Shown here: positions 24,229 through 40,566 of the stretch, piece by piece
How the letters are laid out: the number at the start of each line of letters is the position of its first letter
Numbering within the stretch: position 1 is the stretch's first letter
From: Burkholderiaceae bacterium
GTDB taxonomy: Bacteria; Pseudomonadota; Gammaproteobacteria; Burkholderiales; Burkholderiaceae_F
Direction: 5' to 3'
Assembly (NCBI GenBank): GCA_025055385.1
Contig: JANWXE010000065.1
Span: forward strand, 1-41,252
Length of the DNA: 41,252 nucleotides
Made by a program: the position numbers and the translations under genes
The notes under the pieces: model-generated
The model's input: only the letters and a program-made list of their open reading frames with translations
The model's database searches: none
What the model was told of the DNA's origin: nothing

Positions 24229-24930
24229 ATGCATGGGGTCGTAATCGGCGCCGCTGTCGCCGCTGTCGTCGGCTTTACCAACACCTGGTGTCTACGCCAA
24301 CGCCGGCTTGAAGTTTCCCTCGTGAAGCGGCACGCAGCGGTCGCGCAGAAAGGAAGCTTCGCTAACGGGGCGCCCGGTGTACGTCATGCGCTGGGCGCAG
24401 CCCGGTATGGCGCGCAAGGTACTCGCCGACTGGCTGCGGCGGCGCGCGCCGGTGCGGCTGCGGCCGATGCTCGACCCCGCGCTGTGGCAGTGGCTGCGAC
24501 GCTGGTGGTGCGAGTGCGAGCTCGTGCGGTACCAGCGCCATCTGGCGCGGCTGCGGCCGCTGGCGTTCTGTAGTCGCGCCGAGCTGCGCGCGCTGCGCGA
24601 GCGATTGGTGCTGCGCGACGAGACGGCTGCCGGTTGCTGCCGGGGTTCCGCACCGCGCGGACATGGGAACACTACGCGCCGGCGCGGCAAGCGGTCTCAG
24701 TCTGGCATGCCATGAAAACCGCATTTCGCTCTTTCCGCTAAACGGCTATTCGGCGACCGTGCGCATCGCCGGCCGTGCCGTCGCGCCGCGCCGCGCACCG
24801 ATAGACGAATACAAAAAGGCCGCGCTAACACCGCTGGGCCATCGGCTGTGCATCGCGGGCACTGCCGAAACTTCGCGCGCGGCGGCAGCCGGCCCCCGGC
24901 GTTGCGAACACTACTTGCGGTGGCGCGCGA
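24229..24930 (+). pseudogene. dadA: Decayed D-amino acid dehydrogenase (DadA-like FAD oxidoreductase)
   Basis: No single frame is open across this stretch, but pieces in three frames line up in order with DadA. (1) 24229 onward: MHGVVIGAAVAAVVG, then LEVSLVKRHAAVAQKGSFANG, the FAD-binding N-terminus with its GxGxxG glycine changed to Ala. (2) Frame shift near 24370, then PGMARKVLADWLRRRAP, LDPALWQWLRRWW and SRAELRALRERL. (3) Shift near 24633, then FRTARTWEHYAPAR. (4) After a loss of roughly 150-180 residues, LNGYSATVRIAG, IDEYKKAALTPLG and CIAGTAE from near the usual C-terminus. (5) A further shift to FARGGSRPPALRTLLAVARD. The last 50 or so residues are absent. Intact relatives are about 420-430 residues. 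Alignment is from memory of the family, so segment borders are approximate. The product cannot be functional. Confidence 0.8.
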
Positions 24931-24984
24931 TCCAGAAGGTCTGGCGCTTGCCGTTACGCCGCAGGCACAGCGTAACATCGCGCC

Positions 24985-37601: not shown

Positions 37602-38412
37602 ATGGCTGGGGGCCCTACTGAAACCATTCCCGTCGCGTCGCTGCGGCTGCTACGCCGGCTTCGGCCCGCTGTCAAGGGGTTATACCGCTTCGCGCGCCAC
37701 GCAGACGATCTGACTGACGAAGGAAGCGCGCCGCCGGCGCAACGCGCGCTCGCCCTGCGGGCGTTGCACGCGCAGCTGGACGCCATCGAGCGTGCCGCGC
37801 CGAGCGCCTGGCCGGATCTGGCCGCCGCTGTCCGCACCTATCGCTTGCCGTTGCTGCCGCTGCGTGATTTGCTGTCCGCTTTCGAGCAGGATTTGCACAT
37901 GACGCGCTATGCCAACTACGCCTCCCTGCTCGATTACTGCCGGCGCTCGGCCAATCCGATCGGCCGTCTCCTGCGCGCCTTATTTGGGTGCCCGCAGCCG
38001 GCACTCGTGGCCTGGTCGGACGCAATTTGCCCTGGCTTGCAGCTTATCCGGCAGGACATTGCGCTGGATTATTGCCGGTGGCCGGGTGTACCTGCCGCGC
38101 GCTGAGCTCGAGCGCTTCGGGCTCAACGACAGCGCGATTGCCGGCGCGCGCATCGACCCAGCCTGGGTCGCGCTGATGGTCGCGCAAACGGCGCGGGCGC
38201 GCACGCTGCTGCTGTCCGGGATGCCGCTGCTGCAAGCGCTCGGTGGCCGCATTGGACTGGAGCTGCGGCTGACGATCGATGGCGGTCTGCGGATTGCCGA
38301 GCGCATTGATGCTGTCGGCGGTGACGTGTTCCGCCACCGCCCCACGCTGAGGCGGCGCGATTGGCTGTTGTTGCTGCTGCGCGCGTTACGACCGGGCAGA
38401 ATGCGGCCATGA
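37602..38412 (+). pseudogene. hpnC: Squalene synthase HpnC (hydroxysqualene synthase), frameshifted
   Basis: HpnC converts presqualene diphosphate to hydroxysqualene in the three-enzyme bacterial squalene route. The first part (37602 to about 38077) has LYRFARHADDLTDEG with the first Asp-rich motif, LLSAFEQDLHMTRY and YCRRSANPIGRLLRALFG. After DYCR the frame breaks and continues one base later as GRVYLPRAELERFGLNDSAI to the stop at 38412. Removing a single G near 38077-38078 restores a 270-codon reading frame. In addition, the motif normally reading LQLxNFWQD is LQLIRQD here (about 38043-38057), a two-residue loss with Trp replaced by Arg. Two independent lesions make simple sequencing error unlikely. 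The stop overlaps the hpnD start (ATGA). Start is tentative; no ribosome site is evident. Confidence 0.85.
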
Positions 38413-39266
38413 CGCCGGACGAATACTGCCAGCAACGCGCGGCCGCCAGCGGCTCGAGCTTCTATTACGCCTTCTTGTTCCTGCCGCCGCTGCGACGGCG
38501 CGCGATCACTGCCCTGTACGCCTTCTGCCGCGAGGTGGACGACGCCGTGGACGCAGTCAGTGAGCCGTCTGTCGCGCAGGCCAAACTTGCCTGGTGGCGT
38601 GAGGAGGTGCAACGGCTCTATGCCGGCATGCCCCAGCACCCGGTGACGCGCGCGCTGGCGCCGCACTTGACACGATTTTCGATCGACCGCGAACGGCTGC
38701 TACAGGTCATCGAAGGCATGACCATGGATCTGCAGCCAACACCCTACCATGACTACGCCGCTCTGCAGCGCTACTGCCACCTGGTGGCCGGCGTCGTCGG
38801 TGAGCTGGCCGCCGGCATCTTCGGCGACCCCTCGCCTGCAACGCTGACATATGCGAGATGCCTCGGGCAGGCGCTGCAACTGGTGAACATCTTGCGCGAC
38901 GTCGGCGAGGACGCCCGGCGCGGCCGCGTCTACCTGCCACTGGAAGATCTGCAGCGATTCGACGTCCGAGTCGCGGATTTGCTGGCCGCCCGCTACGTGC
39001 CCGGCTTCGCGCCGCTGATGGCCTTCGAAGCGCAGCGAGCCCGCTCGCTATTGCGCGAGGCACTGGCTGTGCTGCCACCGGCAGAGCGGTCAGCGCAACG
39101 GCCCGGCCTGATTATGGGCGCGCTGTATTTCGCGCTGCTGGAAGAACTAGAACGCGAGCAGTTCCGCGTGCTGCACCAGCGCATCGCGTTGACGCCGCTG
39201 CGCAAGCTGTGGATTGCCTGGCGTACCTGGACTTTCGGCTACCCGGCGATCGACCGGCGGGAGTAA
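38409..39266 (+). CDS. hpnD: Presqualene diphosphate synthase HpnD
   Basis: Condenses two farnesyl diphosphates to presqualene diphosphate, the first step of bacterial squalene formation. The 285 residues show every family block: SSFYYAFLFLPPLRRRAITA, the first Asp-rich motif CREVDDAVD (Asp44, 45 and 48), and the second, LQLVNILRDVGEDARRGRVY (Asp164, Asp168). Start ATG at 38409 overlaps the hpnC stop; longer upstream frames lie within hpnC. The gene appears intact although both flanking pathway partners are broken, so its product would have no local route to squalene. Confidence 0.93.
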   Translation: MTPDEYCQQRAAASGSSFYYAFLFLPPLRRRAITALYAFCREVDDAVDAVSEPSVAQAKLAWWREEVQRLYAGMPQHPVTRALAPHLTRFSIDRERLLQVIEGMTMDLQPTPYHDYAALQRYCHLVAGVVGELAAGIFGDPSPATLTYARCLGQALQLVNILRDVGEDARRGRVYLPLEDLQRFDVRVADLLAARYVPGFAPLMAFEAQRARSLLREALAVLPPAERSAQRPGLIMGALYFALLEELEREQFRVLHQRIALTPLRKLWIAWRTWTFGYPAIDRRE

Positions 39267-39268
39267 TC

Positions 39269-40566
39269 GTGCGCGTAGCTTTAGTGGGCGCGGGCTGGTC
39301 AGGGCTGGCCTGCGCGCTCACGCTGGCCGAGGTCGGCTGTGAGGTCGACGTCTTGGCGGCTGCGCCACGGCCCGGCGGCCGCGCAGAACGCCTCGTGCTT
39401 GATCTGGGTGGACGACGCTGCCTGCTCGATAACGGCCAGCACGTGCTAATCGGTGCTTACACGGAGACGCTGCGGCTCTTAAGCAAGCTCGGCATCGACG
39501 CGCAGCGCGCCTTTCTGCGTCTGCCCTTCACACTCCGGTATCCGGACGGCGTTGCCTTGGCGGGGCGCGGACGGCGTGCGCCTTGGCATCTGACCGCAGC
39601 CGTGCTGACCGCGCGCGGCTTGCCATAGTGCGCGCGCGGCCGCGCTCGGCTGGGTCATGCATTGGCGCCGGCGCCGTTGGCGCGTGTCTGAGGACCTCGC
39701 CGCCGCCGCGCTTTTTGCGAGCCAGCGGCGCGTGTTGGTCGACCGGCTGTGGGCGCCGCTGTGTCTGGCCGGCCTGAATGTTCGCCTGCCCGAGGCCTCG
39801 GCGCAGATCCTGCTTAACGTCCTGCGCGAGGTGCTTGATGCGGAGTCGCCCACGAGCGACCTGCTGCTGCCACGCAGCGATCTGTCGCGCCTGCTGCCAG
39901 ATGCGGCCGCCGCGCTTCTGGCGCACCGGCTGCGACTGCGTGCGGCCGTGCGGTCGCTCGCGCGCCACGCTGGGCGCTGGCGCCTTGGCTCACGCGCCGG
40001 GGTGGAGTGCGATGCGGTCGTGCTGGCGCTGCCGCCGGACCGCGCCGCGGCTGTTGCAGTCCGTGGCGCAGCCGGTCGCTGCGACGCTGGCACAGATTGA
40101 GTTTGCACCGATTTGCACTGTCTACCTGCGCTACGCACAGCCGCCACGATTGCCGCAGCCCATCTACGCGCTGCACACGCAACCGGACAATGGGCATTTC
40201 GGACCGTGGGTGTTCGACCGGCGGCAGACGAACCCGAACTGCGCCGGCGTGCTCAGCGTGGTGATCAGCGGCGCTGGAGCGCATCAGGCGCTCACCGCTT
40301 GTGGTCTGGCCGCGTTGGTCGCTCAGCAAATGATCGCTACCTTTGGGCTGCCCGCGCCGGCAGGCAGTGCGGTCATCCCTGAGAAGCGGGCCACCATTGT
40401 GCCGCGGCGCGGGCTCGTGCATCCGCCACCGCGCGTCTCGGCCGATGGGCTGAACCTCGCCGGCGATGCCGGCAGTCCGTTTCCGTCCACCCTCGAAGGG
40501 TCCGTGCGCGCCGGACTGGCTGCCGCGCAGGCGCTGTGCGCCGCCTGCGGCTTCACGCGCGTTTGA
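39269..40566 (+). pseudogene. hpnE: Hydroxysqualene dehydroxylase HpnE (FAD-dependent), two frameshifts
   Basis: HpnE reduces hydroxysqualene to squalene. The gene starts with GTG at 39269, 2 bp after hpnD, with the FAD fold VRVALVGAGWSGLACALTLA and PRPGGRAERLVLDLGG. A stop is met at 39626-39628, but homology continues one base on as WVMHWRRRRWRVSEDL, DRLWAPLCLAGLNV and ASAQILLNVLREVL. A second break near 40049-40050 leads into LLQSVAQPVAATLAQIEFAP through to NLAGDAGSPFPSTLEGSVRA at the C-terminus. Deleting one base at each site gives 432 codons, the normal family size, so both lesions are single-base insertions. The 3' end overlaps the end of radA by 14 bp. Confidence 0.87.

Follow-up and report, generated by a model that had tools for sequence, protein, structure and literature searches.

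A squalene locus (hpnC-hpnD-hpnE) of an uncultured Burkholderiales bacterium, probably caught in recent and ongoing loss

The window, meaning the whole stretch of 41,252 nucleotides analyzed here, is contig C170 of G000, a draft metagenome-assembled genome (MAG) of an uncultured member of the Burkholderiales (2.2 Mb in 200 contigs, 82% complete, 2.6% contamination). It carries hpnC (37602-38412), hpnD (38409-39266) and hpnE (39269-40566) in this order, adjoining a tRNA-Leu gene, which is their usual place. In the pathway as summarized in PMC5462960 (after Pan et al., 2015), HpnD forms presqualene diphosphate, HpnC yields hydroxysqualene and HpnE performs the reduction to squalene. The stop codon of hpnC overlaps the start codon of hpnD in the sequence ATGA (38409-38412), as it does in G001, a sister species of the same genus. 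The features of the locus are as follows.

37602-38102, plus strand: upstream piece of the hpnC pseudogene, covering roughly the first 160 residues of HpnC; TIGR03464, 158.9 bits, profile 5-161
38045-38050, plus strand: site of a 6-base in-frame deletion in the second Asp-rich motif of hpnC, from the alignment with G001 and relatives
38067-38077, plus strand: frame switch in hpnC, from the codon HMM and the family pieces
38077-38412, plus strand: hpnC pseudogene, downstream piece; TIGR03464, 95 bits, profile 164-266 of 267 (match 38077-38409)
38409-39266, plus strand: hpnD, predicted intact presqualene diphosphate synthase; TIGR03465, 376.8 bits, cut-off 278.6
39269-39628, plus strand: hpnE pseudogene, piece 1, cut short by a premature TAG; TIGR03467, profile 1-116
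39620-39633, plus strand: first frame switch in hpnE, from the codon HMM
39630-40047, plus strand: hpnE pseudogene, piece 2; TIGR03467, profile 132-270
40047-40051, plus strand: second frame switch in hpnE, from the codon HMM
40051-40566, plus strand: hpnE pseudogene, piece 3; TIGR03467, profile 273-429 of 430

With the NCBIfam models, one frame break splits the match of hpnC into two pieces in different frames, and two breaks split that of hpnE into three, each piece in a frame of its own; searching the whole of G000 with Pfam and NCBIfam recovered identical pieces. A codon-usage HMM, which was trained on long open reading frames of G000 and is independent of the family profiles, placed the switches at 38067/38068, 39620-39630 and 40047-40051, so that both the number and the positions of the breaks in the original prediction are borne out. 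A continuous HpnC with intact Asp-rich motifs cannot be read from the locus (two frames, and two residues deleted from the second motif), nor can a continuous HpnE (three frames and the premature TAG). HpnD is matched in a single frame over profile positions 2-266 of 267 and retains both Asp-rich motifs, DDAVD and NILRDVGEDARR (the NILRDVGED motif being present), as had also been anticipated. Programmed frameshifting was considered and ruled out, because the three sites differ from one another, are spread over two genes and have orthologues in G001 that are read in one frame.

The two broken genes show decay beyond the frame breaks, which the original prediction had missed. The second Asp-rich motif of HpnC reads LQLVNFWQD in G001 and LQLIRQD in G000, where the 6-base in-frame deletion, specific to G000, removes a conserved Asn. 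Near-invariant columns, defined as at least 97% conserved in alignments of relatives (93 HpnC, 100 HpnD and 72 HpnE sequences), are violated in G000 at 8 of 57 positions in HpnC (8 of 44 in its upstream piece), at 6 of 45 in HpnE and at only 1 of 83 in HpnD (HpnC and HpnE together vs. HpnD, p = 0.002), and the sole violation in HpnD is common to G001. The relatives average 0.3-0.6 violations per protein, although a single HpnC and a single HpnD among the reference sequences have 9 each and such scores are thus not exclusive to G000. For changes confined to the G000 branch, at which G001 and the near relative G007 agree and G000 differs, the ratio of nonsynonymous to synonymous changes (N/S) is 52/85 in hpnC and hpnE. 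It is lower in control genes taken from the window (169/617, p = 8e-5) and in hpnD (8/34, p = 0.025), whose ratio is that of the controls. The excess in hpnC and hpnE is partly a property of these genes, because on the G001 branch they also show 19/42 against 96/394 in controls (p = 0.04). The two branches do not differ significantly in this respect (p = 0.42), and therefore either the relaxed phase has been short or the codon test is weak. In summary, hpnC and hpnE combine disabling lesions, relaxed constraint and intact orthologues in relatives, as expected of pseudogenes.

Frame breaks are scarce in the rest of the genome. The remaining genes of the window show no frame switch except for the dadA remnant (24371-24960), in agreement with the original prediction, and in the 425 kb of G000 that were surveyed (412 kb after discounting five contigs of N), the only other homology-supported broken genes are this remnant and one acyl-CoA ligase. 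By the codon HMM, suspicious junctions occur at equal rates in G000 and G007 (4.9 and 5.3 per 100 kb, respectively). A homology-based frameshift count against 1.3 Mb of G007 found one break in 34 genes and, in the reverse direction, none in 65; because it covered only these 34 and 65 genes, the HMM is given more weight. The parallel with dadA is apt, since this gene is intact in G007 (L247:13514-14792), a remnant in G000 and deleted in G001 (L252, about 1869-1887). The breaks are concentrated in few genes, like those of real pseudogenes. The five discounted contigs (L136, L150, L156, L159 and L167) are short and consist of N throughout. The acyl-CoA ligase, of the PRK07470 type (L145:2088-3128 on G000:C14), is a further pseudogene of G000 and is spread over at least three frames.

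The relatives of hpnD come from Burkholderiales; of those with a name, the MAG BroJett031 is closest (77% identity). In the comparison set, in which each species is represented by one genome and G001 is the sole further member of the genus of G000, the gene order at the locus is kept in G001 and G007. As the suggested comparison with a sister genome revealed, hpnC and hpnE are uninterrupted in G001 at the same location, and it is hpnD that is interrupted there: the gene breaks off at the end of one contig (C128 of G001, L033:5794-5922) and continues at the start of another (C96, L034:1-99). The joins carry the inverted ends TGTCGCATCCCGGATGATCA and TGTCATGTCCCGGATGATTA, the 6-base repeat ACTACG flanks both sides, and additional copies of the left end lie in two other contigs. 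A 33-residue fragment of the element had tblastn matches annotated as IS481-family transposases and was matched by no NCBIfam model. An IS481-type insertion thus appears, from these sequence features, to disrupt hpnD in G001. In G012, which belongs to a different genus, the locus (L125:4331-6477 on G012:C58, contig JAKOQB010000172.1) has a broken hpnC, a remnant of hpnE and an open hpnD, in whose product the second Asp of the metal-binding DxxxD motif is replaced by His (D48H); elsewhere in this genome, the cyclase gene shc adjoins an SQS-type gene. Within one family, the same cassette shows a different kind of damage in each of three genomes, and it is missing from eight genera, 8 of the 18 genera in the family (67 genomes) being without any match to PF00494 (SQS_PSY).

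The locus had originally been described as a hopanoid cluster, a label that is not supported. Neither squalene-hopene cyclase (PF13249, PF13243), expected of a hopanoid cluster, nor HpnH (TIGR03470), expected where extended hopanoids are made, was found in G000 (82% complete), and the same is true of G001 and G007. Among 61 relatives, 29 have HpnE above the cut-off, and the cyclase domain PF13249 is absent from 27 of these, being present only in G008 and G022. The name hopanoid cluster is a misnomer here, and the cassette is a squalene cassette, whose product is probably squalene itself, because searches of G000, G001 and 27 of the 29 HpnE-bearing relatives yielded no squalene-hopene cyclase. 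HpnC, HpnD and HpnE are known to feed non-hopanoid products, namely C30 carotenoids in Methylobacterium extorquens and P. limnophila (PMC10448405). The occurrence of hpnCDE without a hopene cyclase is widespread, extending to nearly all sampled Burkholderiales that carry the cassette, and annotation of these genes as hopanoid genes could mislead surveys of hopanoid biomarkers.

The breaks might be suspected to be sequencing or assembly errors in a functional locus, given that the assembly is a metagenomic draft and that the squalene locus lies within 4 kb of a contig end. This is extremely unlikely, because the breaks are accompanied by the in-frame deletion at the active site of HpnC and by near-invariant substitutions, and because breaks are almost absent from other genes of G000. 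The type of assembly also argues against errors. The 3′-terminal 141 bases of the window are identical to the initial 141 bases of contig C128, and a second exact 141-base join was found between two sampled contigs; such fixed overlaps suggest a k = 141 de Bruijn assembly from short reads, in which single-base insertions are rare errors. The lesions in hpnC and hpnE are thus most likely genuine, and the independent decay and the parallel damage in relatives lend good support to the proposal of an ongoing loss of squalene synthesis.

Two further explanations were considered. The hpnD gene may be kept for a use of its own, with presqualene diphosphate or some other C30 compound having a function that needs neither HpnC nor HpnE. 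HpnD retains 82 of 83 near-invariant columns amid decaying neighbors, its N/S is at the level of the control genes, and hpnD without hpnC and hpnE also occurs in some acidobacteria (PMC5462960). Few changes over a short branch can, however, arise by chance; hpnD is interrupted in G001 and its product lacks a metal-binding Asp in G012; and the search of assembled G000 yielded no second SQS_PSY enzyme, no other protein scoring near HpnE and no candidate consumer of presqualene diphosphate. A separate use, which had been raised as an option, therefore has no positive support and is improbable, and it is very unlikely that HpnD alone has been retained in the lineage with presqualene diphosphate as the end product, for example as a signaling or membrane lipid. 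Alternatively, a one-enzyme squalene synthase of the FdfT type, encoded in the unassembled 18% of the genome, may have taken the place of HpnCDE. Such a replacement seems to have occurred in G012, where an SQS-type protein is encoded beside shc while hpnC and hpnE decay. Acidobacteria with hpnD and fdfT but without hpnC and hpnE have likewise been described (PMC5462960). Because G000 is only 82% complete, a cyclase or second squalene route could sit in the missing part, but the genome-wide search recommended originally yielded no PF00494 match in G000 beyond this locus, a cyclase was found in neither G000 nor G001, and replacement is likewise considered improbable.

Recent, ongoing loss of the pathway is thus the likely explanation of the locus. 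The frame breaks, the 6-base loss from the active-site motif of HpnC and the changes of conserved residues have most likely turned hpnC and hpnE into pseudogenes, with hpnD as yet undamaged. HpnD without its partners would yield presqualene diphosphate at most, and no squalene is expected from G000 as assembled, because HpnC and HpnE are broken in the known three-step pathway. Expression of hpnD is probably reduced as well: translation of hpnC would stop at 38105, about 300 bases upstream of hpnD, and translational coupling between the two genes is probably lost because termination is early and far from the ATGA overlap. The loss is probably tolerated because there is no squalene-hopene cyclase to supply in this lineage, none being encoded in the assembled 82% of the genome. 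A short time since the loss is the most economical explanation for the persistence of hpnD, although its better conservation relative to hpnC and hpnE is not required under pure drift of the whole locus. Of the original interpretation, pathway loss stands, and the separate use of hpnD and the hopanoid label lack support. The case, best read as ordinary recent pathway loss, provides a clear example of a conserved membrane-lipid pathway caught in the middle of being lost.

The locus corresponds to the HpnC-HpnD-HpnE pathway (TIGR03464, TIGR03465 and TIGR03467) in its gene order, in the families of all of its pieces and in an HpnD above the curated cut-off; it differs in that hpnC and hpnE are pseudogenes and that no shc (hpnF) adjoins it or occurs elsewhere in the assembly. 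The occurrence of hpnD alone is already on record in acidobacteria in which a one-enzyme synthase is present (PMC5462960): in S. bohemicum S15, G. mallensis and strain TAA166, hpnD likewise persists without hpnC and hpnE, but these organisms have fdfT and shc, whereas the search of G000 yielded neither, and its hpnC and hpnE can still be recognized as pseudogenes. G012 (MAG all_maxbin.099; L125, L270) shares with G000 the family, the locus and the state of its three genes, and differs in that decay is further on, that HpnD itself carries the D48H substitution and that an SQS-type gene and shc are encoded elsewhere in the genome.
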